Notes under the pieces: generated by a model
Database searches by the model: none
What the model was told of the DNA's origin: nothing
The model's input: only the letters and a program-made list of their open reading frames with translations
DNA from: Paenibacillus swuensis
GTDB lineage: Bacteria > Bacillota > Bacilli > Paenibacillales > DY6
NCBI RefSeq assembly: GCF_001644605.1
Contig: NZ_CP011388.1
Span: 4,879,501 to 4,943,500 of the forward strand
Direction: 5' to 3'
DNA length: 64,000 nt
Program-made: the position numbers and the translations under genes
Shown: piece by piece, positions 9,183-45,018 of the stretch
Layout of the letters: every line of letters begins with the position of its first letter
Position numbering within the stretch: position 1 is the first letter of the stretch

Positions 9183-9926
9183 TTAATATAGCGGATACTT
9201 TTCTCTTAAATCTTCACGCAGTGTAATGTTGGCGTCTTCACGAATGTAATGGCACACATAAGAACGGCGCCATCTGTTCAAACTGCGATTCTTGTTGGAT
9301 GAATGGATAACCAGCTCGTGAAAGAACAGGATATCCCCCTTCTCCATCACGACCGGAATCTGGTTGCTCACATCCACGCCTTCCGTTTCTTTTGTCCAAC
9401 TTTCATGTTCATCCAGATTCTTCACAGCTCCGTGCGGGAGCAAACCTAATTTATGCGTCCCGGGAATGACCCAGAGACATCCGTTCTCTTCATCGACAAG
9501 ATCCTCCATGGCCACCCAAGCCGCAATCATCGTCATCGGATCGTTCTTGATATAATAATAATCCTGATGGGAAGCTTGCCCCGGTGAACCCGGCTCTTTG
9601 TAGAAATACATGCTTTGCACACCGGCCGCTTCTTTGCCCATCAGTTGCGCCAACCCGCCGCGGATGATCGGCAATTTCATCATTTGACGGGAGAAACTGT
9701 CATGACGATGCGGGTTAAACAGGCGCAAAGAATATTTCTTATCTTCGTCACAGGCGGCCCAGTCCGGCATCGGTGTCTGGTTCCGTATATCATAGATGTG
9801 TCCGTTGAAGGCATCGATCAGGTCCGCGCTGCAACCTTTCTTAACAAGCAGATAGCCTTGCTCCTCATATGTCCGAATATCCTCTTCTGTGAATGGTTTC
9901 ATTAATGTGCTCGCTAATTCAATCAT
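9183..9926 (-). CDS. Phytanoyl-CoA dioxygenase (PhyH) family protein
   Basis: A 247-residue Fe(II)/2-oxoglutarate-dependent oxygenase-like protein. The facial triad is visible as H120-x-D122 in ASHQDYYY and H208 in LVIHSSNKN, with arginines at 214-221 placed to bind 2-oxoglutarate. The PGTHKLG stretch between them is typical of PhyH proteins. Family members hydroxylate very different small molecules, so no substrate can be assigned. The ATG at 9926 follows AGGAG. The gene is upstream of an AraC gene on the same strand, 30 bases apart. Confidence 0.85.
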   Translation of the reverse strand: MIELASTLMKPFTEEDIRTYEEQGYLLVKKGCSADLIDAFNGHIYDIRNQTPMPDWAACDEDKKYSLRLFNPHRHDSFSRQMMKLPIIRGGLAQLMGKEAAGVQSMYFYKEPGSPGQASHQDYYYIKNDPMTMIAAWVAMEDLVDEENGCLWVIPGTHKLGLLPHGAVKNLDEHESWTKETEGVDVSNQIPVVMEKGDILFFHELVIHSSNKNRSLNRWRRSYVCHYIREDANITLREDLREKYPLY

Positions 9927-11522: not shown

Positions 11523-14500
11523 CTATGATTTGTTTAATTGCTTGATTACCATAATCAAATCCGTATAACTGATCTTCAAATCCCCATCCACGTCGCAATT
11601 CACGATGCGTTGCCAATCGACATGGGCTGAGTTTTTACCCAAATTCGGTAAAATCAGCAGCAAATCCAAGAGATTCGTCTTGCTGTCTCCGTTTACATCT
11701 TCCTTCTTGCGTACAACAACAGAGTTGTTAAACTGATTCAGGGCAGCTGACAGCCGCGCTGCGGCTTCATCCGCATGAGCCTGAGTTGACTTTTCATTAC
11801 CCGCGACTGACTCAGCTAATTCAAGCTCGGTGTGTAACGCCGCTTTGGAGCCCGGGGCATATTGACCGATACTTGCCCCTTCCGCTGCGGATTCCAGCTT
11901 ATGCTGAACCGCGGCGATCAGATCAATCAACGTTGTCTTATCCACACCGATCATTTGTATAGCCAGGGTTGATTCGATACCTGGTAAAGCATCACCCACG
12001 CCGCTGCGGAAGGCAGAAGAGCCTCTTATCGTGGTTTCATAGTTCGTTGACCGGATCTTGGCTCTCCACTGAAGCTCAAAGAGCTGCGTATCGCCTGAGA
12101 CGGCTCCATTAGAACCAGCCGAATCTGACAAGACTTGAATGCGGCCAGGTTCCGTATCGTTTACCCGTGTAATTTCATAACCGGGTTTGACGGATGTCGC
12201 CCCGATAAATTCAACGGCTTCCGGATCGTATTGAATGAGAGTGCTCGGAACATATACATTCTGATATACACTCTGGGTCACATAAGAAACCCCGTAGATG
12301 GTTGAGAAGTACGCATCCGCATTCACGGTCACCGGTCCCGATAGTTGACTGTATAGGCTCAGATTTGAATAAAATTCGGCCTTCGCCGCTTTCAACTCGG
12401 TTACAGCAAGCTCGATATCAGCTTGCTTGATTCCTTGTGTGGCTAAAGACGCTCGAGCCTCCTCTATAGCCCTGCCGAACACCTCCACGGGTTCCGAACG
12501 GACTTGCATGCTGGACAACGCTTCTTCATAAACAGCCTGAGTAACGGTTAACTCCGTACGCAACGCCGACTTGTCCACGACTGTCACCGTTGCATTTGCT
12601 GAATGAGCACCGTCCGGTGTGATGACGTTGATTGTCGCATCGCCCGAAAGATGCGCGGTTACTTTGCCGGCCGCATCCACACTCGCGATGTCGGGTTGCC
12701 CCGAGCTCCATACCAGCTGGGAAGCGGCTCCCAAAGGAGCAATCCTCGCCTCCAGCGCCAAATCTTCTCCCTTTTCCAAGTACCCGCTTTCAGGGGTAAC
12801 GGATACACCGGTAACCGGTATCGTCTGGGTCGCTTGAATATCATCGAAGTAGATGGCGCCCGCTGCCGGACCGTCAGCGGATCTTCCCACATACAACGCG
12901 AAGCTGGTCACGGAGCTCAAATCAAGAACCGCGTCGCGGTTCGCTACCCAAGAAGCTAACTTAAATTCACTGAAAGGGATGGTGACTACTCTCGGCGTGG
13001 TTCCAGTAAGCTTGATTTGGCTTTCCCAACCATAACCTGACGCATCGGAGAATTGAACCGTCAATGTATTATTGGAACCGTCCGGTTGAACCCACATGGA
13101 TAAGCCTTTGTATTCATACCAGTTTTTCAGTAATCCGAAGATAACCCCTGCGTACGTTTTGGCACCCATATCGTAACTGTACTTCATTCCGTAATCTCCC
13201 CCGCTCTTCATGGAGGAATCCAACGTTGTAGTTATCATTCCGCCGCCTGCGTTTCTCGCCCAGGCACCCGTTAAAGCGGCGTTCATATCCGGTTTGTTAC
13301 CATAAACCTCAAAATTGTCTATAAACCAGTTGTAGCTTTGATAGTTTTCGGGAGCTTTAAAGCCAATCATGAATTCATCCAAATAGATCGGAGTTGAATT
13401 CGTCTGCATGACTTTTAACTTCAACTCACGAAATTCACCGCTATTGAAATTGACCGTATTGTACGTCCAACCTCCTCCGATATTAAGCGTGACTGCCTCC
13501 GCAACAGGAACTTCCCCAGAGACGTTCGTAATGCTGTAAGCCGCGCTGCCGCCGGAGGTTTTAGAGTAAAATGAAATCGTATAGTCCTTCCGGGCTTCAA
13601 CATCGAAATCTTGAGAAAGTATAGTTTCCCCTTCTCCCTGGCCGGCCAATTTGAGAGATTGCAAACCGAGCCTCCGCTCCTCTGTTGTCACTGTAACCGG
13701 CCCGCTGGCCAGCCAAGGAAACAAGCGGCCCGTTTCAAAGTCACCGTTCATCAAGAAGGAGACTTTCGCCGCAGCCGGCGGTGTTTCTATGATCTCGATA
13801 TCATCAAAATAAGTAATCGCAGCCGTACCCGGCTCTGTAAGCATTACTTTCAATGTAGAATGGGTCCCGCTGACAAACTCACGAGTATATTTCACCCAGT
13901 CGGTACTGGAAGGCACGGGTACATCCATGAGCGTAGTTCCTAAATCTGAACTTACGACTTTATATCGCCCTCCCTGTCCCTTGGCGTATAGGTTTAGGGT
14001 ATATTGTGTTCCGGGCTTGACCGTGATCTGCTGGGAAGATAACGTATAATTCCCTTTGGCGCCTGTTTTCAACGCGTTGATTCCTGTCCGTTTCTCCACG
14101 GAACTTATCGTTGCCCCGCTACCCAGCACCCAAGGAGAGATACCTGCTTCAAATCCGCCGTTCGCCACGGTATTTGGAGTTTCGCGGACATCAACGTCAT
14201 CAATATACATTGTTGTCGGTGTACTGCCTTCATAGAACGTTAAATACACGGTGCTGAAATTGCCGCTGTTAAAGGACTGTGTACAACGCGTCCATTCCGT
14301 TGCCGAGACGGTACAGGCACTGTTTGTCACCGTATTGGACAGACCCGGATCCGTAGTCACCTTCGCTCTCGGATTCTGGCCTTTCGCGTAATAAGATAAC
14401 TCGTAGTTGGTATTGGGCGTAACGGACATCGTTTGGGTTATACTTGCATATCCGCCTTTATTTCCGCTTTTTAACGAAGCCGTTCCGGATTTCGCTTCAT

Positions 14501-16451
14501 TGCTCACCACAGCCGCGCCGCTTGTTCCCGCAGACCAGGATTTCAGTCCCGCTTCAAAGCCCGCATTCATCACGTAATTTTCATCCTGTTTCAACTCCGC
14601 GTCATCCACATACGTATTATTATTCAAGGATAAATTTAATAGGGAAACAATGACTGCTTCTTGGTTACCGCTGTTAAAGTTTAACGTGTGAAGTTTCCAT
14701 TCCGCGCTCGGCGAAATAGATGTAACATTCGCAGGATCTGTCGTCCCGCCAAGGCCGATGACTCCCTGATTAACGTCAGTCACTTGCAACCTCGCGGATC
14801 CGCCGTCGGACTTGGCATACAGAGTCAGCTTGTAGTTTGTCTTCGGCTTCACTTTAAGCGACTGCTTTGCGGTTTGGGTTCCGTTCACCGGACCTAGTAA
14901 CAAGGAGGTTCGTCCCGTACGATGCCCTTCCCGCGTTATGGCGTTGGACTCATTCTCCATGCTCCATCCATACGTGCCAAGCTCCAGTCCTCCATTCACC
15001 AACAAGTTTTCTTTTGAAGAGATAACCGTCGGGACCGGTCCCGCAACATTAGAATAAGGCGATGCGCCGGACATATTGTTAGCGGTCATTCGGTAATAGT
15101 AGCTTTTTCCTCCAACTGCGGTAGCATCCTGATAAGGAACATAAGGATTACTGCTGTCTACAACTTCGGTGGCTACCACCGACCATGGACCATCCGGAGT
15201 ATTCGCTCTCTCGAGCGTATAACTTTCCGCGCCCGTGCTTCCACGCCAGGCAATCTTCTGAACCGATTGAATCGGCAGCAATAAAGGCGCCTCAGGCACA
15301 GGGATGGGAGGTACTTCCCTATTCTGTATGCGGTAAGCCCGGTCCGTTACCATCCTCACGACGTTCGCCTGATCATTCGTGACCGGATACCCGATTGCGG
15401 TAGGCAGAATCGGCGGATAATGGTAAGAGAAATAACTCGAGTTTTCCCGGTGCTGATAATACCCGCCGTCTTCCTTATGGAAACGCAAGCTCCAAATCAT
15501 CGCGCCGGAGGTGCCGTTTTCGATGACTTTATCAAACATCTTCTGCATATTCAGCGTGGCCGTTAAACCTACTTCCCCGATAATCAGGGGTTTCTTCCCC
15601 TTGGTCCGAAGTCTGTCTCTGTCCGCCGTACCCGCGAGATCCGTATTCGAATAATAGTGATTAGACAGGATGTCCACATTCGGATCCTCAATGGATTGCT
15701 CGCTAAGCGTCCCCCAGTTTCCGTCCATGAATAACTGATTCGCATTAACCGACTTGAAGTACGCCGCAATATCCCCGATCCACTCATCGGGAGCATGAAG
15801 CTCATTCCCGGTTTCCCAAGCCATGATCGCCTTGTCATCCTTATATTTAATGTTCGTATACGTATTGGTTCGGTTCATAATGTGATGCATGACTTCCTTG
15901 AAATCTTGCCTTACGCCCGGATCCGTGTAGAATTCCTCCGCAGTTTTCCCACGCAAGTTAGCGAAAGCGGCTTTCCCGCCGAAATATTCTACATCATTGG
16001 TAAACGGAATGATCAACCGAATTCCGTACTGGTTGCATAACTGAATCGCTTTATCCAAATTCACAAACAGACTCTCGTCATATTGCATCGTCCCTGTACC
16101 GTCCCGTCCGTGAATGAAACGGAGCGCGGTATCCGCTGCAGACTTTTTCACGGTAAATTGCATAATCCGGATGACTTGCCCGCCCATCTGCGCAACGGAT
16201 CGAATCGCATCCTCCATCTCCCAAGCTGTGGATTTATGAAGAACGGGATCTTCATTAAGCACCAAGCTCGGCACGTTCCACGAAATGAATCTGAACTCTT
16301 CCGAACCATTCATCAGTTTATCTCCTGATCTGGTAATGAAACGGGATTCGTTACTCACCTCAGCCTGAGCAAGTTGAGGGGTCCATTCTGTCATGCAAGC
16401 GCTTAACAAAAACAGTACAACAAAAGATAACATACCGGTTTTCTTTAACAT
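11523..16451 (-). CDS. Giant secreted GH5-like glycosidase with CBMs, cohesin and dockerin
   Basis: A 1642-residue exported protein; FLLSAC at residues 14-19 could be a lipobox. Residues 35-350 form a GH5-type barrel with E217 in ETGNELHAP (acid/base) and E293 in LIIGEVGLT (nucleophile), most like mannanases. Then come FN3 (385-475) and four CBM4_9-like sandwiches (481-622, 624-757, 758-890, 897-1030), each opening with an NxGFExG-type motif. These are followed by a CBM11/27-like module (1036-1208), Big2 (1211-1292), FIVAR (1293-1362), a cohesin-like domain (1370-1500), a second FIVAR (1502-1580) and a dockerin with DVNGDSKTNLLDL and DVDGDLKISYTDL (1582-1642). It is the first gene of the mannanase operon. 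Confidence 0.88.
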   Translation of the reverse strand: MLKKTGMLSFVVLFLLSACMTEWTPQLAQAEVSNESRFITRSGDKLMNGSEEFRFISWNVPSLVLNEDPVLHKSTAWEMEDAIRSVAQMGGQVIRIMQFTVKKSAADTALRFIHGRDGTGTMQYDESLFVNLDKAIQLCNQYGIRLIIPFTNDVEYFGGKAAFANLRGKTAEEFYTDPGVRQDFKEVMHHIMNRTNTYTNIKYKDDKAIMAWETGNELHAPDEWIGDIAAYFKSVNANQLFMDGNWGTLSEQSIEDPNVDILSNHYYSNTDLAGTADRDRLRTKGKKPLIIGEVGLTATLNMQKMFDKVIENGTSGAMIWSLRFHKEDGGYYQHRENSSYFSYHYPPILPTAIGYPVTNDQANVVRMVTDRAYRIQNREVPPIPVPEAPLLLPIQSVQKIAWRGSTGAESYTLERANTPDGPWSVVATEVVDSSNPYVPYQDATAVGGKSYYYRMTANNMSGASPYSNVAGPVPTVISSKENLLVNGGLELGTYGWSMENESNAITREGHRTGRTSLLLGPVNGTQTAKQSLKVKPKTNYKLTLYAKSDGGSARLQVTDVNQGVIGLGGTTDPANVTSISPSAEWKLHTLNFNSGNQEAVIVSLLNLSLNNNTYVDDAELKQDENYVMNAGFEAGLKSWSAGTSGAAVVSNEAKSGTASLKSGNKGGYASITQTMSVTPNTNYELSYYAKGQNPRAKVTTDPGLSNTVTNSACTVSATEWTRCTQSFNSGNFSTVYLTFYEGSTPTTMYIDDVDVRETPNTVANGGFEAGISPWVLGSGATISSVEKRTGINALKTGAKGNYTLSSQQITVKPGTQYTLNLYAKGQGGRYKVVSSDLGTTLMDVPVPSSTDWVKYTREFVSGTHSTLKVMLTEPGTAAITYFDDIEIIETPPAAAKVSFLMNGDFETGRLFPWLASGPVTVTTEERRLGLQSLKLAGQGEGETILSQDFDVEARKDYTISFYSKTSGGSAAYSITNVSGEVPVAEAVTLNIGGGWTYNTVNFNSGEFRELKLKVMQTNSTPIYLDEFMIGFKAPENYQSYNWFIDNFEVYGNKPDMNAALTGAWARNAGGGMITTTLDSSMKSGGDYGMKYSYDMGAKTYAGVIFGLLKNWYEYKGLSMWVQPDGSNNTLTVQFSDASGYGWESQIKLTGTTPRVVTIPFSEFKLASWVANRDAVLDLSSVTSFALYVGRSADGPAAGAIYFDDIQATQTIPVTGVSVTPESGYLEKGEDLALEARIAPLGAASQLVWSSGQPDIASVDAAGKVTAHLSGDATINVITPDGAHSANATVTVVDKSALRTELTVTQAVYEEALSSMQVRSEPVEVFGRAIEEARASLATQGIKQADIELAVTELKAAKAEFYSNLSLYSQLSGPVTVNADAYFSTIYGVSYVTQSVYQNVYVPSTLIQYDPEAVEFIGATSVKPGYEITRVNDTEPGRIQVLSDSAGSNGAVSGDTQLFELQWRAKIRSTNYETTIRGSSAFRSGVGDALPGIESTLAIQMIGVDKTTLIDLIAAVQHKLESAAEGASIGQYAPGSKAALHTELELAESVAGNEKSTQAHADEAAARLSAALNQFNNSVVVRKKEDVNGDSKTNLLDLLLILPNLGKNSAHVDWQRIVNCDVDGDLKISYTDLIMVIKQLNKS

Positions 16452-20092: not shown

Positions 20093-21718
20093 TTATTTGG
20101 CTTGATACGAAGTCTTAAATTCTTCTTGAATTTGTTTGTAGGTTTCATTGTTTACAATGGATGCGACGTATTTGTCCCAATCCTCGAAACTCATGGCGCC
20201 CATAACCACTTTAACCGAGTTATTATCCAGATCTTTCGTTAACGCTTTCCACTTGTCATCGTAAGTCGGAGCGTTCAAACCAATGGTAGGGTACGAAATT
20301 TTGTTCTCTTCAACAATGGACTTTAATTTGGTTTCCAACTCTTCAATCGTTTTGGTGTATTCCGGTTTATTGAAGTCTTTAGCCGCACCCAGTTGCCAAG
20401 GCACCGTTGCTGTTGCACCCATGAAGTTCTGGTAAATCCATACCGCATCGTCCTTATACTTCGGCGTTTCTACTTTCTTGCCGTCTTGAATCGTATAATA
20501 CACATTCTCAATCGGATTTTTGGCAAAGTCCAGATATTCCTTGGTAGCCGTATAATTGGCTATTTCCAGAATCCGTTCCGCACCTTCCTTACCGTACTTT
20601 TCATTAATGACCCATGCTACATCGAAAGGCTTTGAGGCGTTTATCGCATAGCCCTTAGGACCTTTCACTGGACCGTAAGCTACCAATTCAGGGTTATCCT
20701 GAACGCCGTCCTCGAAGTACTTGATACCGAATTGCGGCAAGTGCAGCCAATCATACATGTCTCCGAGAACAACACCCGATTTGCCTTTTTTGATAAAGGA
20801 TGTTGGTTGAGCCAAAGCAAATTCCGGGTTAATCGCTTTCTTCTCAACAAGTGTCTTTACCCATTGCAGGAAGTCCTTATATTCAGGAACAAAATCACGG
20901 TAGATAAAGTTTCCTTCCCCATCCATCCCCCATGGAGCATGGATGCCAGTGAACGAAGCAGCGATTGGCGCCAAATCTTGCGCGTGGAAATGTCCGCGGT
21001 CGAAGTTCAAACCGTAGCGCTCAGGCGGGTTCGTCAACTTCGTTAGCAACTCCGCCAATTCCTCTGTTGTTGCAGGCGCTTTCAAATTCATCTGTGTCAG
21101 CAAATCTTGACGTATTCTGGTTGAGCTCTGCACAAATTGATTATATGCGATTCCTTTTGGAATCCCGTAAATTTTGCCGTCCACCTTCATATACTCCCAG
21201 TATTCCTTCGGAATCTTCGCAAGCTCCGGATACTTCGTCGCGAAGTCTTCACTCTCGATGAGTGGTGTCAGATCGAAGAAAGCTCCGCCTTTAATAGCCT
21301 GGTAGGTTTGTGCAGGGAAGTTCACGTTATCGCCAAGCACAATTTCCACTGCATCCGGCAAATTTTTCGAAGCCAGCTGCACGTTCACACGGTCGATATA
21401 TTGCTCAATTTTATCAGCAGGCACGAATTGAATGTCTAACTTGGTGTTCAACTTCTTCTCCAGTTCCAACTCCAGCTGATTGTCATTCTGGGGCAACGTT
21501 CCCCACATTCTGGTTTGGATCACCGCGGTCATTTCTTTCGCAAAAGGCTTGTAAGCTTCAGCTGTTACATTAGCAGCCGGTGTTTCTGTATTCGTTCCGG
21601 AATTCGTGTTGGTGCTTGAAGCGCCATTATTGTTGTTGTTCGTATTGCAACCTGCCAGGACGGAAGCGGCTACAACGGTTAACGCCGTAAACTTCGCCCA
21701 ATTTTTAATCATTCCCAT
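20093..21718 (-). CDS. ABC transporter sugar-binding lipoprotein (LplA/YtcQ type)
   Basis: A 541-residue lipoprotein. Residues 1-23 are a signal peptide with lipobox VLAGC. An Asn/Thr-rich linker follows (residues 24-48), then a two-lobe solute-binding fold. Stretches such as GGAFFDLTPLIESE, WEYMKVDGKIYGIPKG and VINEKYGKEGAERILEIANY are typical of the large binding proteins that partner LplB/LplC permeases and import di- and oligosaccharides. It is the last gene of a three-gene minus-strand operon, with 110 bases after the permease. Its likely cargo is the oligosaccharide produced by the neighbouring secreted mannanases; no ATPase gene is present, which is usual because a shared MsmX-like ATPase serves these systems. 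Confidence 0.92.
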   Translation of the reverse strand: MGMIKNWAKFTALTVVAASVLAGCNTNNNNNGASSTNTNSGTNTETPAANVTAEAYKPFAKEMTAVIQTRMWGTLPQNDNQLELELEKKLNTKLDIQFVPADKIEQYIDRVNVQLASKNLPDAVEIVLGDNVNFPAQTYQAIKGGAFFDLTPLIESEDFATKYPELAKIPKEYWEYMKVDGKIYGIPKGIAYNQFVQSSTRIRQDLLTQMNLKAPATTEELAELLTKLTNPPERYGLNFDRGHFHAQDLAPIAASFTGIHAPWGMDGEGNFIYRDFVPEYKDFLQWVKTLVEKKAINPEFALAQPTSFIKKGKSGVVLGDMYDWLHLPQFGIKYFEDGVQDNPELVAYGPVKGPKGYAINASKPFDVAWVINEKYGKEGAERILEIANYTATKEYLDFAKNPIENVYYTIQDGKKVETPKYKDDAVWIYQNFMGATATVPWQLGAAKDFNKPEYTKTIEELETKLKSIVEENKISYPTIGLNAPTYDDKWKALTKDLDNNSVKVVMGAMSFEDWDKYVASIVNNETYKQIQEEFKTSYQAK

Positions 21719-21828
21719 GGTGATGACCTCCCGTTATATCTGTTTACATCATTTATAATGAACAGAGATGCGTCTCCGGCCGGAAGACCCTCCCGAACAT
21801 CCATATTTACCTTGTTTCCCGAACTTCT

Positions 21829-22728
21829 CTACCCTTTAACCGAACCAATTAACACACCTTTGGCAAAATATTTCTGAAGAAAAGGATACAGCGCCAGGAT
21901 CGGTGCCGTAACCACCATGACCGCGGTCATCTTCACAATTTCCGGATTAATCTGCTGATTACGCGTCATATCCACGCCGGAATCCGTAAATTCGTTTACA
22001 TTGGCCTGGACCACAATCTGTTGCAGAAACACCTGCAAGGGCCATTTCTCAGGGGTGGTTATATACATGATCGCGCTAAAGAAAGTATTCCAATAGGCAA
22101 CGGCGGCAAACAGCGTAAATGCGGCTAGCATAGCCTTGGATAGCGGCAGAATAATTCGAAAGAAGATGGTAAGGTCGTTACAACCGTCAATCTTCGCGGA
22201 TTCCTCAATTTCGGAAGGAAGTTCCTGAAAGAAGCTTTTCATCACGAGCAGTGTCCATGCGCCCACCAGTCCTGGAAGAATAAGCGACCACCACGAATCG
22301 ATCAGATTCAGCTTGTCAATTAAGAGGTAGTTTGGAATCAGGCCGGGTGAGAACAGCATCGTGAAGATGACCAGATTCAGAATCCATTTGCGTCCCGGCA
22401 GCGTCTTCTTGGCCAGCATATAGGCCATCATCGAACTGATGCCGATGGAAAGAGGAACACCGATGCAAGTGATAAATAGCGAAGCTTTAAACGCGTTAAG
22501 AAAACCTTGACCGGATAGAACGTAATCGTATGCTTCCCAGGAAAAGTCCTTGGGGAACAACATGAATCCTCCACTGATATAGTTGCTGGAATCGCTGAAT
22601 GAAATCGCCAGTACGTAGATGAAAGGGACAATCATGGTGAACGAAAGCAGCAACAACAAGAGTGTCAATATTCCCTGATAGACTCTCTCCATCCCTCTGT
22701 GACTACCCGCACTAATAAATGCCTTCAT
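21829..22728 (-). CDS. ABC sugar transporter permease (LplC/YtcP type)
   Basis: A 299-residue inner-membrane permease with about six hydrophobic segments. The EAA loop that contacts the ATPase is visible as EIEESAKIDGCNDLTIFFRIILPLS-like sequence near residues 190-215. The C-terminus PFLQKYFAKGVLIGSVKG is the standard ending of this permease class. It overlaps the 3' end of the upstream permease gene by 17 bases and has AAGGAG before its ATG, so translation is probably coupled. Confidence 0.93.
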   Translation of the reverse strand: MKAFISAGSHRGMERVYQGILTLLLLLLSFTMIVPFIYVLAISFSDSSNYISGGFMLFPKDFSWEAYDYVLSGQGFLNAFKASLFITCIGVPLSIGISSMMAYMLAKKTLPGRKWILNLVIFTMLFSPGLIPNYLLIDKLNLIDSWWSLILPGLVGAWTLLVMKSFFQELPSEIEESAKIDGCNDLTIFFRIILPLSKAMLAAFTLFAAVAYWNTFFSAIMYITTPEKWPLQVFLQQIVVQANVNEFTDSGVDMTRNQQINPEIVKMTAVMVVTAPILALYPFLQKYFAKGVLIGSVKG

Positions 22729-23665
22729 GTCCGCGTCTCCTTACCAGATAGTTACTGCCCAGAACCAGGATTAACCCGATGGTGGACTTGAAAATACCGA
22801 CCGCAGCCGTATAACTGAACTCGCCTTCCCGAATACCTTGCTTGTAAACGTAGGTTTCAAAGACTTCCGAATATTCGGAGTTTATAGGGTTCTGCATCAG
22901 ATAGATTTGTTCAAAATTCGTATCCAGCGTATGTCCAAGCGCAAGAATAAACATGATGATGACGGTGGGTATAATCGACGGCAACGTAACGGACCAGATC
23001 TGTCGGAGTCTGCCTGCCCCGTCCATCTTGGCGGATTCGTACAGAGCCGGATCGACGCCTGCAATGGCTGCCAGATAAATGATGGAACCCCAACCGATAT
23101 TCTTCCACTGTTCCTGCAAAATCACAAGAGGATAAAAGGCTTTGCCATTGAAAAGCAACTCGATGCGCTCCCCTCCCCATGTGTGAATGAGGTTATTGAG
23201 GATCCCGGTTTCTTTGGAAAGAAAGATGTACGTTAAACTGATGACAATAACCCACGATACGAAGTGGGGCACATAGACGAACGTCTGAATCCAGCGTTTG
23301 ACTGTGGCATTCTTCAATTCGTTGAGCAACAAGGCCAACACGATCGGTGCCGGGAACATAAGGATATGCAACAAACTGATCGTAATCGTATTGCGGAACA
23401 GCATGAAAAAATCCGGATCCTTGAACAGCGTTATGAAGTGCTGCAATCCAACCCATTCACTTTGCAGGATCCCCTTGTATACGGAATAATCCTGAAACGC
23501 GATCATAATGCCCGGCAATGGCAAATATTTAAATATAATGAAGCATAACATGCCGGGAAGCCCTAACAAATATAAGTACTTATGTTGAGCGATCTCCCGC
23601 AGAACAGAAGGTTTTCTCTTCACGGCGATCTGAGCCGGCAACCGTTGCGGCAGGGTATCTTCCAT
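22712..23665 (-). CDS. ABC sugar transporter permease (LplB/YteP type)
   Basis: A permease of about 317 residues with six hydrophobic segments and the EAA loop DPALYESAKMDGAGRLRQIW. The N-terminal KYLYLLGLPGMLCFIIFKYLP and the C-terminal NYLVRRRGHEGIY are characteristic of LplB-like proteins. I place the start at the ATG at 23665, after AAGGAG (12-base spacer). An upstream ATG at 23704 in the same frame has no clear site and would add 13 residues. It is the first gene of the transporter operon. Confidence 0.9.
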   Translation of the reverse strand: MEDTLPQRLPAQIAVKRKPSVLREIAQHKYLYLLGLPGMLCFIIFKYLPLPGIMIAFQDYSVYKGILQSEWVGLQHFITLFKDPDFFMLFRNTITISLLHILMFPAPIVLALLLNELKNATVKRWIQTFVYVPHFVSWVIVISLTYIFLSKETGILNNLIHTWGGERIELLFNGKAFYPLVILQEQWKNIGWGSIIYLAAIAGVDPALYESAKMDGAGRLRQIWSVTLPSIIPTVIIMFILALGHTLDTNFEQIYLMQNPINSEYSEVFETYVYKQGIREGEFSYTAAVGIFKSTIGLILVLGSNYLVRRRGHEGIY

Positions 23666-23834
23666 AGGTTTCTCTAACTCCTTCTCTGTCTGGTGTATCT
23701 TCATTCTACTCTGAAAAAAATAAGGGTTCTAACTGTCAAGCACATCATTTTATCAGAATTGTAACTTTCCGTAGTTGTCACTTTTTGATTAGCAAAATAA
23801 TGACAGCTCCATTGACATCCCTAGTGCAGAAAAA

Positions 23835-23859
23835 AGCTGCTTTCCTAAAGGAAGCAGCT
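23835..23859 (-). terminator. Terminator of the amidohydrolase/Rieske/DUF6259 operon
   Basis: On the minus strand AGCTGCTTCCT pairs with AGGAAAGCAGCT (one bulge) and is followed by TTTTTTC, ten bases after the stop at 23869. Confidence 0.8.
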
Positions 23860-23868
23860 CCATGTTAA

Positions 23869-25929
23869 CTATTGGAAGAGATACAAACGGACACTTTGAG
23901 GGGGAATTGGACTTGCAGCATCAACTGATTCCCCATCCGGATCAGCACAGCCGAATAAGGAACGTCGCCCCGCTCTAATGCTGCAATTCAGCTCTGTTGA
24001 AGAGCTGTTCCATACGAGTACGGCGATCCGGTCGCCGGCTGCATAAGCCTTAGCAGTCAATCCCTCAGACAGGCCGATAAGCTCGAAACCGGTGGTATCT
24101 AGGAATCGGCCCTCCCAAAGGTAATCTGAATACTTTTTGCAGAATTCAATAACCTGCCGCAAATATTGTTTTGCTTCAGCTGGAGGAATACTCCTCATCA
24201 ACTCATGATCAGGTGGATAATAAACTACATCCTCATAATCCTCAGACTCGGGAAGTTTATCTTGAAGCAAGTACTGTACATCGGCCCTGTAACGGGTTTC
24301 CAATTCAAACCTCAATCCATACAGGACTGCGAAGTTGGCGTAGTACCGGTCCATCATGGCCGTAGGATGACGCTGCGTCATAGGCAGTTCCGGAAACGTG
24401 TAACGGAACATCTCGGGGAAGGGCTCTTCCCCTGCGGAGGCATGCGTTTCTTCCGGCCTGAAGCCGCAGCCCCAGCCGTGAACATACGATATCCCGGAGA
24501 GCACAGAGTCATGAATCCCCTCGGTCATAATCGCGAAGTCAGGGCTTAGACTTCTCATATGCGTTGCGATAGAATGTATAATTTGACTTCGTTCTGTTGT
24601 ATATGCGGTCGCCGGTGTTTTATGTTTATGATTCGGGTTATGACATTCATCTGGACCATAGACTCCGATTTGGTCGAAAAGGATGCCATCGGCTCCCAGC
24701 TCATAGGCTTGTATAGCCAATTCCAGCATCCGGTTCTGCCATACGTCCGAACCTGTACAACCCATGGCGAACGGAACCGGTGTTGCACTGCGAAATTTAC
24801 GTACTGATGAAACTTGGAGTTCCTGGTTCTCCAGGAGCAACGCAGCATCATTGCCATGATAACGATAGAACTCCGTCATAAGGTCCATGATGACCCCATT
24901 AGCATAGAGAATCGTTCGCATGCCTCGCTCCTTGGCACGCCCCAGAGCTTTCCGCAGCGCCTCTTTACCTCCCATTAACTGATCGGGAATAAAATCGGGG
25001 AAACAGCGGTCATGTCCGCCATGCGCCCAACCGAACAAGCCAAGGGTGTCTAGACCGCGTTCCTCGGCGACTTGACATAACTGATCAATTCCGCTGTGGT
25101 AGTCCCACATGACCTCCCCGTTCTGCTGCTTCATTACGCTAAGCAGCCACCCGGAAGACCGGCGAACCCATTGTGGGGGCGTAATGATTGAAGCATGCGA
25201 ATCGTACCAACTTCGGTATATCTGAGCCGCTTCATGCCAGGTTCCCTGAAAAGCTTGTATGACGAAGGTCGGAGAATTCCAACTTCCTCCGGGCTGGATA
25301 TACGGATGATGCTTAACGCTGACATCCAGAACATCCAATAATTCATTATGATTTGCATGAATGTCTAATTTCCCCTTATCAGGATCATGTGTGCCGAAGT
25401 ATAATCCGCCACTGTTTTCACAAGCAAGAGCGAACCATGGCATCGTCCCTGTCCCGCTTGGATAGGACATCGACCTGCTTCCTATCGCCTGAAATCCGCG
25501 GAATCGCTGGCCCAGTCCGTTGGGCCAATATAAGTTGCTATTTTCGCCCGAAGCTTGTATACCCGATAACTTTACTCCTACGACCTCCCGAATATACCAA
25601 GCCTGCTCATTATGATTCTGAATGTGCAGAGAAATATCCCATTTCTGGGATGCTGTCTCCAATATCCGCATTTCGATCTGTATTTTTGAAAAAGGCACCG
25701 ATTCGCTTAGCCTACTGTACCGAATAAGATAACCCTGATCCACCGCTTCTGCCTGCCCGGAACAATCCTTGCTTGAAAGCAGCAACTTTACTCCCGGCTT
25801 CCAAGGTTGGGAGGGAAGCTGGGCGGTCAAACTCCATTCCAGTAGGCCTTCCTTATAACAATTCATGATACTTTCCAGACTAATAGCCTTTCCGTTCAAT
25901 TGAACTAACCCGTCTGATATTTTTGGCAC
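23869..25929 (-). CDS. GH36/DUF6259-like glycoside hydrolase
   Basis: A 686-residue intracellular protein with an N-terminal beta-sandwich (1-230), a TIM-barrel (about 240-570) and a small C-terminal sandwich, the build of GH36/GH31-type enzymes. It most resembles the DUF6259 group, whose activity is mostly untested. Candidate catalytic acids are D in ADGILFDQIGVYGPDE and E in FAIMTEGIHDSV. The barrel also has LGLFGWAHGGHD, as in retaining alpha-galactosidases. The start is a GTG at 25929 with GGAGGAG 8 bases upstream; the longer reading starts inside the ribosome-binding site. It is the last gene of a three-gene operon after an amidohydrolase and a Rieske protein. Substrate unknown. Confidence 0.78.
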   Translation of the reverse strand: MPKISDGLVQLNGKAISLESIMNCYKEGLLEWSLTAQLPSQPWKPGVKLLLSSKDCSGQAEAVDQGYLIRYSRLSESVPFSKIQIEMRILETASQKWDISLHIQNHNEQAWYIREVVGVKLSGIQASGENSNLYWPNGLGQRFRGFQAIGSRSMSYPSGTGTMPWFALACENSGGLYFGTHDPDKGKLDIHANHNELLDVLDVSVKHHPYIQPGGSWNSPTFVIQAFQGTWHEAAQIYRSWYDSHASIITPPQWVRRSSGWLLSVMKQQNGEVMWDYHSGIDQLCQVAEERGLDTLGLFGWAHGGHDRCFPDFIPDQLMGGKEALRKALGRAKERGMRTILYANGVIMDLMTEFYRYHGNDAALLLENQELQVSSVRKFRSATPVPFAMGCTGSDVWQNRMLELAIQAYELGADGILFDQIGVYGPDECHNPNHKHKTPATAYTTERSQIIHSIATHMRSLSPDFAIMTEGIHDSVLSGISYVHGWGCGFRPEETHASAGEEPFPEMFRYTFPELPMTQRHPTAMMDRYYANFAVLYGLRFELETRYRADVQYLLQDKLPESEDYEDVVYYPPDHELMRSIPPAEAKQYLRQVIEFCKKYSDYLWEGRFLDTTGFELIGLSEGLTAKAYAAGDRIAVLVWNSSSTELNCSIRAGRRSLFGCADPDGESVDAASPIPPQSVRLYLFQ

Positions 25930-25997
25930 TATGCATTCTCCTCCGCGCAATAAATATAATGAGTTCTACGCTTCCTTGAAATAGTATGAAGGCGGTT

Positions 25998-26378
25998 CTA
26001 AACCGTAGGCATGTATACAACGACATTTTCTTTCGACTGCTCAATATTGTAAGTCTCAACGACCACGTCATATGAGCGCGTCTTCACGCGCGGATCTGTT
26101 ATCAGGCAACCTGTCTTGATATCGAATTCCCACTGATGCCATGGGCAACGGATAATTTCGCCTTCACGCTCAGAGGAGAACTGACCCGGTTCTTCAGATG
26201 TCACCAGAGGTGTAATTAACCCGCTGCACAGCTCAGCGCCTTGATGAGGGCAATAATTCCGCAAAGCATATAATTTTCCTTCGATATTAAACACGCCGAT
26301 ACTTCGACCTCCAATGTCGATCACTCGACGGGACCCGACAGGGAACTCAGCTGCTGCTCCGATTATATGCGGCTTCAT
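25998..26378 (-). CDS. Stand-alone Rieske [2Fe-2S] ferredoxin
   Basis: A 126-residue soluble protein with both Rieske ligand pairs: C43-P-H45 in NYCPHQGAELC and C78-P-W-H81 in RCPWHQWEF. A 20-residue acidic insertion (about 55-74) lies between them. No oxygenase alpha subunit is encoded with it, so it should act as an electron carrier or as a subunit of a partner elsewhere. The ATG at 26378 overlaps the amidohydrolase stop as ATGA and follows GGAGGG, which indicates coupled translation. The pairing of Rieske protein with amidohydrolase and GH-like genes is unusual and suggests an oxidative step on a sugar-derived ring or acid. Confidence 0.9.
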   Translation of the reverse strand: MKPHIIGAAAEFPVGSRRVIDIGGRSIGVFNIEGKLYALRNYCPHQGAELCSGLITPLVTSEEPGQFSSEREGEIIRCPWHQWEFDIKTGCLITDPRVKTRSYDVVVETYNIEQSKENVVVYMPTV

Positions 26379-27460
26379 ACACTTCCCTCCTTCGCCCAAG
26401 AACCAAGTTTGTATAATCGCGCTGCATTGTTGTAGTAAATATTCGCCGAAGTTTCCTCATCCAGCTTGGGTAAGGCCATCGCTGGAGAATCAAAGTCCCA
26501 ATGCGGATAATCGCTGCAGAATAACAGCTTCTCCTTCCCGTTCATCCATTCCAGCATTTGCTTGAAGGCTGCCGGATTAGGTCCCGTTTCAATCGGCTGA
26601 GAACCTATATATACATGATCCATAAAATACTCGCTCGGCTTCTTCTTCACCCACGGGGTTTGATACCGCAAGCCGATCCAGTCCTGATCCAGTCTCCATA
26701 AGTAAGGCACAATCCAGAACACGCCTGCTTCAAGCAACACTACCTTCAGGTTAGGGAAACGCTCGAATACCCCTTCAAAGATGAAACTCGCCAGGTGAGC
26801 CATTATTAACTGGGGCCGCAAAGCCCGGTATTCAATATAATAGGAAGGGTGACCGGCTCCTGTCGGTGAAGGATTGATTCCGAACCCTTCCATACCGATA
26901 TGAATGGTGAAAGGCAGATCGTTCCGTTCACAGGCCTCATAGATTGGATTGTAATAACGCTGGCCGTATAGAGATTTTGCGCCGCTTGGCGCAATAACCT
27001 GAACCACATCTTTATGTTTGCCCACACGGTCAATTTCTTTGGCGGCCAGCAATGGATCCTGAATCGGGATGAGTACGGATCCCTTCATGCGCTTATCCTT
27101 CTCTAACCAATGTTCCACGGTAAAGTCATTGTACGCTGAACATAAAGCTGCCGCGTAATTCGCGTCTGGTGTGGTCGTTACAGGTTGGAACTCCCCGGTT
27201 AATATGCCGTACTCCACGTTGAATTCGTCCATAAGTTGTTTCGCCAAGAAGGACAAATCCGATGCCGGTGGATTCCCGTTGGGCGGGAATGAATCCACCC
27301 TTCTCCCCTGTACCCCGCCGTTCAGTGTCGGCAGGGACGGCAGCTGTAAACCCCACGTCTCCACTTGAGAACGATAATGTTGAGACAAATAAGGGAACAA
27401 ATCTTTGACTTCGCCAAGCTGATGATGAATATCACAATCGATGATTTTACGTCGTCCCAT
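26375..27460 (-). CDS. Amidohydrolase-2 (ACMSD-like) family protein
   Basis: A 361-residue TIM-barrel metalloenzyme. It opens with IIDCDIHHQ (metal-binding D10-x-H12 region) and has HIGMEG near residue 190, MAHLASFIFEG, and the late CSDYPHWDFDSP motif with the catalytic aspartate. This set is typical of amidohydrolase-2 proteins, which include decarboxylases (ACMSD, gamma-resorcylate) and lactonases. The ATG at 27460 follows AAGGAGG. It is the first gene of the operon with the Rieske and DUF6259-like genes, and is divergent from the unusual regulator at 27672. Hydrolysis of a lactone or decarboxylation of a ring acid are both possible. Confidence 0.85.
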   Translation of the reverse strand: MGRRKIIDCDIHHQLGEVKDLFPYLSQHYRSQVETWGLQLPSLPTLNGGVQGRRVDSFPPNGNPPASDLSFLAKQLMDEFNVEYGILTGEFQPVTTTPDANYAAALCSAYNDFTVEHWLEKDKRMKGSVLIPIQDPLLAAKEIDRVGKHKDVVQVIAPSGAKSLYGQRYYNPIYEACERNDLPFTIHIGMEGFGINPSPTGAGHPSYYIEYRALRPQLIMAHLASFIFEGVFERFPNLKVVLLEAGVFWIVPYLWRLDQDWIGLRYQTPWVKKKPSEYFMDHVYIGSQPIETGPNPAAFKQMLEWMNGKEKLLFCSDYPHWDFDSPAMALPKLDEETSANIYYNNAARLYKLGSWAKEGSV

Positions 27461-27609: not shown

Positions 27610-27638
27610 TTGTGTATTTCGATATCATTCGTTATAAT
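27610..27638 (+). promoter_or_regulatory. SigA-type promoter of the LacI-like regulator gene
   Basis: TTGTGT (27610-27615) and TATAAT (27633-27638) with a 17-base spacer. The -10 box is perfect and the -35 is partial. The ribosome-binding site GGAG lies at 27660-27663, ahead of the ATG at 27672. Confidence 0.6.
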
Positions 27639-27671
27639 TACATGTTATTCTATCGGATCGGAGCCCCAGCC

Positions 27672-28820
27672 ATGATGAACAAGATGTTGCCGCTGATTGC
27701 GGAGCCCGCTTATACCCTGACCAGTTGGTACACAAAGACGGTTGCCGGCATTGAATCCGAAGCCGGGCGGAGAGGGTTAAAACTTACCGTATATCCAACA
27801 GAGCTGAATGATGTCATGGAAGAGATACCAAACCCGGGAGCCATTCTTGTTCTTGGCAGCTCCGCGGCGTGGGAACAAACCGTATTGAATCAGTTGCATG
27901 CCGCGGGCGTTCATCCCATTCTCGTGAGTACGCATTTCCATGAGATGCAGTCCTCCTCGAGCTACATAGCCCTCGACCATTCCCGGGCTGCATGCGAATT
28001 GACCCGATCTGTTATAGATTCGGGCTGTAAGCGCCTGGCCTTCTGCGGCATGAATCCGGACTCCCTTACCGATTTACTGAAGCACCGGGGATATGTTACG
28101 GCTCATTCGCAGGCAAATATTCTAGTCCATGATGAGGACATTTACAGAATGGACGGCTCCATAAGCCGTTGTTTTGAGAAACTTTTACCGATGCTTCCTC
28201 AATACGACGCCGTGATATGCACGAACGATGTTGTCGCCGTCCTTTTGATCCAAACATTGAAAGAAATCTCACCTAACTTGTTATCCCGCTTGTCGATCAC
28301 CGGTTTTGGCGATACGATGACGGGCCGGATTACAACCCCTTCCTTAACCACGGTGACGCTGGATTATGCTGAAGCTGGCCGGAAAGCCGTGGATCTTCTT
28401 CTTTATCTTGTTAAGCATGATAAGGTCGTCTCTTCTTCCATAACGGTTGCCAGCCACATTCAAACTAGGGAAACGACCTCCGGTTTCCACGACATGCCGG
28501 TGGACGAAGGATCACATTTAACGCTCTCCAAATCTTCGAATGCAGTTTCAGCCCGAACGGAACAACAATTTTACCGAATGGAGCACCTCTTGCAGGAATC
28601 GGATTCATTAGACCTGGATATTCTTCGCGCCCTGCTCACAGGCAACACCTACGAATCCCTGTCGGAACATATAAACCTGTCGGTGACCGCAATCAAATAC
28701 AGAATAAAAAAGATGCTGATTCGGTCCGAATCAACATCTAAAGCGGAGCTCCTGAAGCTCATCAGCACTTATGTGGAACAGAGCGACAACCTGAAAAATC
28801 TGTACGGGTGTTCAGGATAG
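27672..28820 (+). CDS. Regulator with LacI-type sensor and C-terminal helix-turn-helix
   Basis: A 382-residue protein. Residues 5-290 match the periplasmic-binding-protein-like effector domain of LacI/GalR regulators: YTKTVAGIESEAGRRGLKL, YIALDHSRAACELTRSVI, YDAVICTNDVVAVLLIQ, SITGFGD and LTTVTLDYAEAGRKAVDLL. The usual LacI N-terminal helix-turn-helix is missing; the protein starts directly with MLPLIAEPAYTLTSWY. Instead residues 314-366 (LDILRALLTGNTYESLSEHI, then NLSVTAIKYRIKKML) look like a LuxR/GerE- or sigma-4-type helix-turn-helix. ATG 27672 has GGAG 8 bases upstream. It is divergent from the amidohydrolase operon, which it probably controls in response to a sugar. Its 3' end overlaps the convergent AraC gene by 9 bases. 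Confidence 0.82.
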   Translation: MMNKMLPLIAEPAYTLTSWYTKTVAGIESEAGRRGLKLTVYPTELNDVMEEIPNPGAILVLGSSAAWEQTVLNQLHAAGVHPILVSTHFHEMQSSSSYIALDHSRAACELTRSVIDSGCKRLAFCGMNPDSLTDLLKHRGYVTAHSQANILVHDEDIYRMDGSISRCFEKLLPMLPQYDAVICTNDVVAVLLIQTLKEISPNLLSRLSITGFGDTMTGRITTPSLTTVTLDYAEAGRKAVDLLLYLVKHDKVVSSSITVASHIQTRETTSGFHDMPVDEGSHLTLSKSSNAVSARTEQQFYRMEHLLQESDSLDLDILRALLTGNTYESLSEHINLSVTAIKYRIKKMLIRSESTSKAELLKLISTYVEQSDNLKNLYGCSG

Positions 28821-43217: not shown

Positions 43218-43961
43218 CTATGAAAACAAGTCATAGACTTGCCTAGCTGATTTGTGCAAAATGAATGCCTGTTCCTCTTCCGTCAACCCGGAAGTCCGAA
43301 TCTTGGCTAATTCCGTACCGGTATTATCCGCGTGATCGGTGCCAAACAGAAACCGGTGAGCGCCTAGTTCCCGTACCCATTGCCGAATGAGGAAACCGCC
43401 CGTCCAAGTGATATCCGCATACAGATTAGAGCAACACCGCATCGCTGTTATGGTTTCACCCGCAAGCACCATCATTCCGCAATGCGCGATGACAATTTTT
43501 ACTTCAGGGAACCGTTCGGCGACAGGAATGAGGTTGGAGGGATTCGCGAAAGGTATGCCCGCGCCGGTATGCACCATAACCGGAATGCCCAGCTTCCCGG
43601 CGAGTTCAAACACTTTCAAACCGTCGCGGCTCGCAGGATGAACCGCGTGAGCAAACGTATGAAGCTTGATCCCGATAAACCCATGTTCTTCCACGCAACG
43701 TCGTACTTCCTGTTCATATTGCGTATCAGGCAAATGAGGATTAGGGTTAGCCATCCCGTGAAATCGACCCGGGAAAGCTTTCATAGCCGCGAATATAGCG
43801 TCATGTTGTTTACGAACCTCCTCTAGACCGTGACAGGAAGCGGGTTGCAAAATCGTAACTTCAATCCCGTAAGTATCGTGTTTGTGAAGCTGTTCTACTA
43901 ATGTAAAATCCTCGTCAAACACCTGATCCCAGCCTAAATGCGCATGTACATCAATGATCAT
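43218..43961 (-). CDS. Amidohydrolase-2 family protein, candidate lactonase
   Basis: A 247-residue TIM-barrel metalloenzyme. It begins MIIDVHAHLGWD with the HxH metal pair (H6, H8). Further ligands are in GIKLHTF, MVHTGAG, IAHCG, and the catalytic aspartate in FGTDHADN. Small amidohydrolase-2 enzymes include several sugar lactonases. Its ATG overlaps the end of the oxidoreductase gene by four bases and follows AGGAGGAG. In the proposed pathway it would open the lactone made by the neighbouring dehydrogenase; that is inferred from context, since the characterised D-apionate lactonase is not of this family as far as I recall. Confidence 0.82.
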   Translation of the reverse strand: MIIDVHAHLGWDQVFDEDFTLVEQLHKHDTYGIEVTILQPASCHGLEEVRKQHDAIFAAMKAFPGRFHGMANPNPHLPDTQYEQEVRRCVEEHGFIGIKLHTFAHAVHPASRDGLKVFELAGKLGIPVMVHTGAGIPFANPSNLIPVAERFPEVKIVIAHCGMMVLAGETITAMRCCSNLYADITWTGGFLIRQWVRELGAHRFLFGTDHADNTGTELAKIRTSGLTEEEQAFILHKSARQVYDLFS

Positions 43962-45016
43962 GGGCTGCTTGCTCCTCCTGTTATTAAGATTGGCATATGC
44001 CGCACCGCGCTCTCGTATACACCGAACGTCATTCGCAGCGTAATCAGGTTATCCCTTCCTTCCGTTTGAAAAGGGGTGCCGTGATCAAGACAAGCGATGA
44101 AATGGGATTGCAGCAATACATGGCTGTAAGCATGATCCAACGTAGTGGAAGAGGTTAGGACCCGTTCCTCGGTTCCGTCTTCAGAAATAAACAGAATCTG
44201 ACCCGAAGTGTCGAGTTTCAGCGTACCGAGCGTGCCGTCAATGACCAGTTGCTCCAGATGAAGGGGTTTCACTCCTTGGCCAAGAGGACGATCCAGCTTC
44301 TGACGGGTAGCCCAGCTCATATCCATATATCCATAGAAGTCTTCGTGACTGAGCACCACAATGCCGCTGTCTTCCCCCGCGATATGGGGACTAATCGTAG
44401 CCGTTTCGGCATAGATTCGCTTGGGTGTGCCAAACAAATACCTCCAGGTATCGAACCAGTGCACACCCATCTCATAGAACAATAACCTCGGCATGTCACG
44501 GAAAAATGGTTGTGGCAACACCGCACCGGGTGCCATTCGCGGTGTGTAGTAGTCCGTATGGGTGTAACGAACCGTTTGCACCTTGCCGAGCGTACCGGCA
44601 TCCAGTACTTCCTTAATGAAACGAAACGGCTCAAGCCATCTCCAATTCTCCGTTACCATGAACCGAACTCCGCAGGACTCGGCCTTGGCCACCATCAGGG
44701 AAGCCTCTTTCTCTGAAGCCGCAAGGGGCTTCTGGCAGAGAATATGCTTTCCCGCATCAGCCGCTAAAGTCACCAACTCCGTATGCGTTTCCGGTCCCGT
44801 GACGATATCCACAATGTCGATATCCCCTTGGTTCAACATTTCTTCCAATGATGTGTAACATTGTTCATCCGGAATGCCGAACGCTAACGCCTTCTGACGA
44901 AGGTTCAGGGGGTTGCGGTCGCATAGCGCCGTCACCACCGCGCCCGGGATTTGCGCCCAAGCGGCAAGGTGATTATCTGACCAGAACCCGGTACCTACCA
45001 AGCCCACTTTCCACAC
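43958..45016 (-). CDS. Gfo/Idh/MocA oxidoreductase, candidate D-apiose dehydrogenase
   Basis: A 352-residue NAD(P)-dependent sugar dehydrogenase. The Rossmann motif is VGLVGTGFWSDNH; the family lysine is in ILCQKPLAAS (QKP in place of EKP); and YEMGVHWFDTWRYL holds the likely catalytic H near residue 185. The start is a GTG at 45016, two bases after the stop of the upstream gene, in front of which GAGGTGAAG lies. The known D-apiose dehydrogenase ApsD belongs to this family, and three neighbours fit later steps of that pathway, so oxidation of D-apiose to its lactone is my leading guess. Other aldoses cannot be excluded. Confidence 0.85.
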   Translation of the reverse strand: MWKVGLVGTGFWSDNHLAAWAQIPGAVVTALCDRNPLNLRQKALAFGIPDEQCYTSLEEMLNQGDIDIVDIVTGPETHTELVTLAADAGKHILCQKPLAASEKEASLMVAKAESCGVRFMVTENWRWLEPFRFIKEVLDAGTLGKVQTVRYTHTDYYTPRMAPGAVLPQPFFRDMPRLLFYEMGVHWFDTWRYLFGTPKRIYAETATISPHIAGEDSGIVVLSHEDFYGYMDMSWATRQKLDRPLGQGVKPLHLEQLVIDGTLGTLKLDTSGQILFISEDGTEERVLTSSTTLDHAYSHVLLQSHFIACLDHGTPFQTEGRDNLITLRMTFGVYESAVRHMPILITGGASSP

Positions 45017-45018
45017 CT

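Follow-up and report, generated by a model that had tools for sequence, protein, structure and literature searches.

A predicted amidohydrolase-related oxygenase and its Rieske partner share an operon with a DUF6259 glycosidase-like protein in Paenibacillus swuensis

What might a single transcription unit achieve with an amidohydrolase, a small Rieske protein and a probable glycosidase? Three such genes lie together in the 64,000-nucleotide stretch of Paenibacillus swuensis DNA analysed here (the window; contig NZ_CP011388.1, positions 4,879,501 to 4,943,500 of the forward strand), which comes from a single-contig genome of 5.01 Mb. In window coordinates the unit is composed as follows.

26375..27460, minus strand: amidohydrolase-related oxygenase (ARO; annotated amidohydrolase), 361 amino acids, from Pfam Amidohydro_2, PDB matches and an AlphaFold model
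25998..26378, minus strand: Rieske [2Fe-2S] ferredoxin, predicted AibG-like electron donor, 126 amino acids, from Pfam and motifs
23869..25929, minus strand: DUF6259 protein, probable TIM-barrel glycosidase, 686 amino acids, GTG start, from Pfam
23828..23861, minus strand: terminator-like hairpin and T run at the end of the trio, -15.2 kcal/mol, z -2.15

An earlier note, made from the letters alone, had described these genes as a coupled operon ending at one terminator, and the coordinates, start sites and hairpin all agree with that description. Analysis of open reading frames and Pfam domains placed the trio entirely on the minus strand in the order amidohydrolase, Rieske, DUF6259 gene, with Pfam matches of 4e-37 (Amidohydro_2), 3e-16 (Rieske) and 2.4e-29 (DUF6259). 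The ATG of the amidohydrolase has AAGGAGG 5' of it, the Rieske start codon falls within an ATGA overlap with the amidohydrolase stop and has AAGGAGGG 5' of it, and the best start of the DUF6259 gene is the GTG at 25929, with GGAGGAG 5' of it, which leaves a 68-base gap after the Rieske gene. The hairpin was absent from the output of a generic consensus terminator scan.

The amidohydrolase had been taken for a decarboxylase- or lactonase-like enzyme. When it was compared with the sequences of solved structures, the matches came in the order 8SM7, 8SM6, 8SM9, 8SM8 and the AibH2 and AibH1 chains, with E values of 1e-104 for 8SM7, 8e-99 for 8SM6 (SfbO) and 7e-58 for AibH2; ARO structures spanned 1e-104 to 1e-44, whereas decarboxylases reached 3e-17 or weaker. 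The top entries 8SM6-8SM9 are AROs, dinuclear oxygenases related to amidohydrolases (PMC10811679), and AibH2 is the Mn/Fe 2-aminoisobutyrate hydroxylase chain (PMC7782822, PMC10401708). All six metal ligands named for AibH2 in PMC10401708 (D25, H27, H211, E265, D337 and H340) are kept in a 116-sequence alignment, where they correspond to D10, H12, H187, E244, D317 and H320 of the window protein. Like these ligands, the second-sphere D342 of AibH2 is kept (window D322), and an Asp at this position was reported in binuclear members only (PMC7782822). The sites, all placed by alignment, are as follows.

27425..27433, minus strand: metal ligands D10 and H12 (AibH2 D25, H27)
26900..26902, minus strand: metal ligand H187 (AibH2 H211)
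26729..26731, minus strand: metal ligand E244 (AibH2 E265)
26495..26512, minus strand: metal-site motif DYPHWD, with ligands D317 and H320, W321 and second-sphere D322

The DYPHWD motif was conserved in 25 of the 25 rows of a smaller alignment. An AlphaFold model of the window ARO, built from 25 sequences (predicted local distance difference test, pLDDT, 89.9), superposed on 8SM7 with a Z score of 51.4 (1.3 A over 347 residues), on SfbO with 51.1 and on AibH2 with 47.2, the ARO crystal structures as a whole ranging from 43 to 51 and the decarboxylases lying near 31. PtmU3 (PDB 6OMP), a monooxygenase from this superfamily with a nonheme diiron site, shares the fold (Z 34.8) and the dinuclear site, but is only 18% identical and acts on natural-product coenzyme A (CoA) substrates. 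The protein does not fit a mononuclear PF04909 decarboxylase, as D322 is present and similarity to decarboxylases is far lower than to AROs. The core of the trio is a member of the published ARO family and no new kind of system, and its family, ligand set, fold and conserved pairing are established here; its metal content, O2 activity and the role of its Rieske protein would be those described for homologues in the literature. Similarity at the level of AROs, dinuclear ligands and fold replace the decarboxylase or lactonase first supposed.

The Rieske protein carries the motifs C43-P-H45 and C78-P-W-H81 (C-x-H, C-x2-H) in one small domain. It had been called a lone Rieske protein without an oxygenase subunit, which holds literally for classical oxygenases: Ring_hydroxyl_A (PF00848) had no match in the genome, in a search whose controls gave matches, so that the carrier is not explained by a classical Rieske oxygenase. 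The adjoining amidohydrolase, however, belongs to an oxygenase family, and the genome check proposed for a Rieske oxygenase ended not with one of these but with a conserved adjacent ARO. The suggestion that the carrier supplies an enzyme encoded elsewhere did not hold up, since the partner gene overlaps its own and the pairing is widespread. Among the ARO loci of the order, the top 30, one of which is the window's, all have a Rieske gene next to the ARO. With the Rieske protein as the starting point, 66 of 80 loci have an ARO-like gene on the same strand no more than 400 bases away, and at 60 it lies directly upstream. Paired loci found with the Rieske query extend to Chloroflexota, Poribacteria and Pseudomonadota, annotated records hold further pairs in a haloarchaeon and on a Mesorhizobium plasmid, and the window genome has four. 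Co-occurrence of ARO and Rieske was put at 90% (PMC10401708), and AibG was assigned as an electron-transfer ferredoxin (PMC7782822). By analogy the Rieske protein would pass electrons to the ARO, and we have little doubt that the two make up a multicomponent monooxygenase of the ARO type described in the literature, into which the oxidative reaction foreseen in the earlier note fits well. An apparent natural ARO-Rieske fusion (L035) was not used, being a gene-calling or frameshift artefact because the open frame continues into another frame past the metal-site region.

What such an enzyme might oxidize is suggested by SfbO, in which a sulfate is held by N67, R232, R235, Y280 and W341 (PMC10811679). 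N67, R232, R235 and W341 are all kept in the window protein as N47, R212, R215 and W321, from which the following site was predicted by alignment to the published residues.

26816..26827, minus strand: predicted anion pocket R212 and R215 (SfbO R232, R235; with N47 and W321)

In a quick maximum-likelihood tree of the 116 rows (short search, no bootstrap; support by the approximate likelihood ratio test SH-aLRT) the window ARO, whose nearest relatives are mostly from Paenibacillus, fell in a 51-row set (SH-aLRT 98) in which 48 rows carry N-R-R, and within it in a 32-row Bacillota group (SH-aLRT 100) in which 30 do. Since the N-R-R-W residues of SfbO are kept and the protein sits in an N-R-R clade, its sequence makes an anionic substrate fairly probable. 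SfbO itself, from Litorilinea aerophila (8SM6; PMC10811679), shares with the window ARO 43% identity, the fold (TM 0.94), the six ligands, N-R-R-W and an adjacent Rieske gene, but belongs to another phylum and has Tyr287 where the window protein has Gln, and it is the window operon that adds a glycosidase. The 8SM7 protein ('G. y4 TruffO', Geobacillus sp. Y412MC10; PMC10811679) is closer in sequence (46% identity) and has all the ligands, but carries H-L instead of R-R and groups in another clade, together with the three other AROs of the window genome. The 2-aminoisobutyrate monooxygenase AibH1H2-AibG-AibF (PMC7782822, PMC10401708) likewise joins an amidohydrolase-fold Mn/Fe oxygenase to a small Rieske ferredoxin, but is only 33% identical, forms a heterotetramer with AibH1, has the FMN reductase gene AibF in its operon and is adapted in substrate and pocket to an amino acid.

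The third protein scored 102.9 bits against DUF6259 (PF19773), for which the curated cut-off is 28.7, and its gene is single copy in the genome. Pfam gave no named glycoside hydrolase (GH) family in it, and a profile search returned weak matches only, to TIM-barrel glycoside hydrolases (alpha-N-acetylgalactosaminidase 5wzq, E 0.006; alpha-galactosidase 6phw, 0.09); a single-sequence structure prediction (pLDDT 33) was discarded. The remark in the earlier note that DUF6259 activity is largely untested is in keeping with our literature search, which found no paper naming the domain. Of the 395 genomes of the order, 15 had DUF6259 matches (E < 1e-20), and in the majority of the 14 loci that we looked at the gene lies behind those for an enolase-family dehydratase and a short-chain dehydrogenase (SDR), an arrangement also seen at the closest homologue (L127, 51% identity). 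This enolase-SDR-DUF6259 cassette recurs (L130-L138, L127) beside sugar ATP-binding cassette (ABC) importers, and at L134 the enolase passes the NCBIfam cut-off for galactonate dehydratase, which suggests that DUF6259 feeds an oxidative galactonate-type pathway. The cassettes share with the trio a homologous glycosidase-like protein (24-51% identity to the window's), but differ in that, of the 14 loci, L134 (genome G191) alone has an ARO-Rieske pair, behind a divergent AraC gene; apart from the window's, no further DUF6259-ARO neighbourhood was found. Our approximate calculation, with 16 loci, 10 kb and some three AROs in a genome of 8 Mb, gives a probability near 0.06 that a single case arises by chance, so that this neighbourhood lends weak support. 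Conservation of the trio, which had been proposed as a check, is therefore divided: the ARO and Rieske genes stay paired across phyla, whereas the glycosidase accompanies them in one other sampled genome.

The neighbours of the trio also bear on its substrate. Encoded around it are a GH3 enzyme, a regulator that has a sugar-binding domain and an importer of the LplA/LplB/YtcP type, with GH5 and GH26 enzymes further off.

27612..28820, plus strand: regulator with LacI-type sugar-binding domain and C-terminal helix-turn-helix (HTH), divergent to the trio, from Pfam
20093..23704, minus strand: LplA-like binding protein with LplB/YtcP-type permeases, forming a separate unit past the terminator

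From its position the regulator may control the trio, and the importer may take up the trio's substrate; no CcpA-like sites were found in the trio promoter region. The regulator is itself unusual, with the LacI-type domain N-terminal, a winged or LuxR-like HTH C-terminal and the usual N-terminal HTH missing. A second ARO of the same genome heads the run ARO-Rieske-PS_pyruv_trans-GH88-DUF2264 (L098, 4356-10120), in which, from the Rieske gene onward, neighbouring genes overlap or nearly touch. Related ARO-Rieske pairs (74%, 62%) occupy a similar PS_pyruv_trans-GH88-DUF2264 neighbourhood in G262 and G356 (another family), and G368 and G074 have homologues of these three genes with no ARO in the stretch read. 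In other genera, two AROs of the window clade follow a gene for an aldehyde dehydrogenase, which scores 894 and 896 bits against the NCBIfam GucD cut-off of 770; GucD is ketoglutarate-semialdehyde dehydrogenase, an enzyme of sugar-acid breakdown. Other AROs are neighboured by GH2, heparinase-like and pectate-lyase-like genes. Taken with the GH88 and DUF2264 operon of the second ARO, the carbohydrate neighbours make the link of the oxidative step to sugars, which the earlier note had raised, a probable one. Two more specific proposals were not adopted: 4-O-methylglucuronate as the substrate, because the genome lacks GH67 (the search covered GH67, not GH115), and a sulfonate pathway read from neighbouring iron alcohol and aldehyde dehydrogenases, of which the former passes no cut-off and the latter passes GucD, not SafD.

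Elsewhere in the window, a PhyH-type (phytanoyl-CoA dioxygenase family) gene at 9183-9926 (minus strand), between an AraC regulator and the GH26/GH5 genes, provides a second oxygenase within a carbohydrate locus. At 11523-16451 (minus strand) lies a gene for a 1642-residue protein that combines GH5, CBM11 and Big_2 with three CBM4_9 and a type I dockerin, and two open frames of the genome, 939 and 2050 residues long, match cohesin; a small cellulosome-like system, if true, would be unusual in P. swuensis.

Taken together, we consider it likely that the ARO and Rieske proteins are a monooxygenase acting on an anionic, sugar-derived substrate released by the DUF6259 enzyme. A glycoside brought in by the sugar ABC importer would be opened by the DUF6259 enzyme, which most likely frees the substrate or its precursor. 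Electrons from NAD(P)H would reach the Rieske [2Fe-2S] cluster by way of a reductase whose gene is not linked to the trio. The cluster would hand them to a dinuclear site, Fe/Fe or Mn/Fe, formed by the six ligands in the amidohydrolase barrel, where O2 would be activated and a C-H bond of the substrate hydroxylated, in what may be an oxidative O-dealkylation. The anionic group would be gripped by R212, R215, N47 and W321. On the sugar-derived nature of the substrate, taken by itself, we lean towards acceptance.

Several observations weigh against this reading. No activity is known for the window ARO or any close relative, and SfbO was assayed on surrogate buffers only (PMC10811679). Y280 of SfbO could not be matched, since the deposited sequence has an Asp at this number, which is Asp in the window protein too, and the nearby Tyr287 aligns with Gln. 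FAD_binding_6 (PF00970) had no match in the genome, which thus lacks an AibF-type reductase domain, so that the reductase is not an AibF homologue; PF00175 matched once only, inside a 1073-residue open frame. DUF6259 is no constant companion of the ARO pair, and its closest homologue has no ARO pair within about 8 kb. When 114 proteins within 5 kb of 21 window-clade AROs were tallied against 127 from 20 random regions (controls drawn from four genomes of the order, not the same genomes as the AROs), AraC regulators were the sole significant enrichment (26/114 vs 5/127, p 1e-5); ABC permeases were not enriched (15/114 vs 9/127, p 0.13), and glycosidases (GH2, DUF6259) were present but sparse and not the commonest neighbours. 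The sugar link is for these reasons suggestive.

One alternative is that the ARO-Rieske pair acts on a small anionic non-sugar, such as a sulfonate, phosphonate, amino acid or carboxylate, and that DUF6259 is a passenger that joined the operon. AibH1H2 has 2-aminoisobutyrate as its substrate (PMC7782822), SfbO dealkylates aminoethylsulfonates (PMC10811679), and DUF6259 lies near an ARO in two of the searched genomes only, its closest homologue not being among these cases. We nevertheless regard this alternative as unlikely, though one to be taken seriously, since the trio shares one strand and one terminator, the DUF6259-ARO neighbourhood of G191 includes a galactonate dehydratase, and the second ARO of the genome itself sits in a GH88 operon.

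Amidohydro_2 includes decarboxylases and lactonases, and the Pfam name alone supports the earlier view of the amidohydrolase as a hydrolase, lactonase or decarboxylase with a Rieske neighbour that serves another enzyme; with a complete dinuclear ligand set, similarity at ARO level, an adjacent Rieske gene at every locus found with the ARO and no alpha subunit of a Rieske oxygenase in the genome, this is very improbable. A second, short Amidohydro_2 protein of the window (247 amino acids), encoded within 43218-45885 (minus strand), has no adjoining Rieske gene, accompanies GFO/IDH/MocA and PGDH_C dehydrogenases and probably belongs to an unrelated sugar-acid or lactone pathway. That the window protein is a non-catalytic AibH1-like partner in need of another ARO subunit is hardly credible, for although AibH1 retains some ligands and degenerate sites do occur among paired AROs, none of the six ligands is missing from the window protein, which also has the Asp322 that AibH1 lacks (PMC7782822), its operon has no second ARO, and SfbO and similar relatives were investigated on their own (PMC10811679). 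The degenerate paralogues (L029:7370-8464 and L036:10329-11420) have D317 changed to N and H320 to Y, each lies beside an intact ARO, and they are perhaps AibH1-like non-catalytic partners.

Extended to the family, the sugar-derived reading becomes doubtful: that N-R-R-type AROs in general are monooxygenases for the breakdown of acidic or O-alkylated sugars is a tentative proposal. If true, such AROs would oxidatively remove sugars that carry modifications, such as uronic or aldonic acids that are O-methylated or blocked in another way, after their release by a partner glycosidase, a task so far credited, to our knowledge, to P450s and Rieske oxygenases, and the trio would be the first such ARO to share an operon with its glycosidase. 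The case also illustrates how 'amidohydrolase' annotations can conceal oxygenases. AROs are widespread and able to use manganese for C-H hydroxylation, natural substrates are known for almost none, and gene neighbourhoods had so far given no substrate for them (PMC10811679, PMC10401708). The glycosidase operon, the GH88/DUF2264 operon and the predicted anion pocket shorten the list of candidates to glycosides and sugar acids, and the value of the finding lies in this context, as an ARO within a glycosidase operon hints at the substrates of the family.

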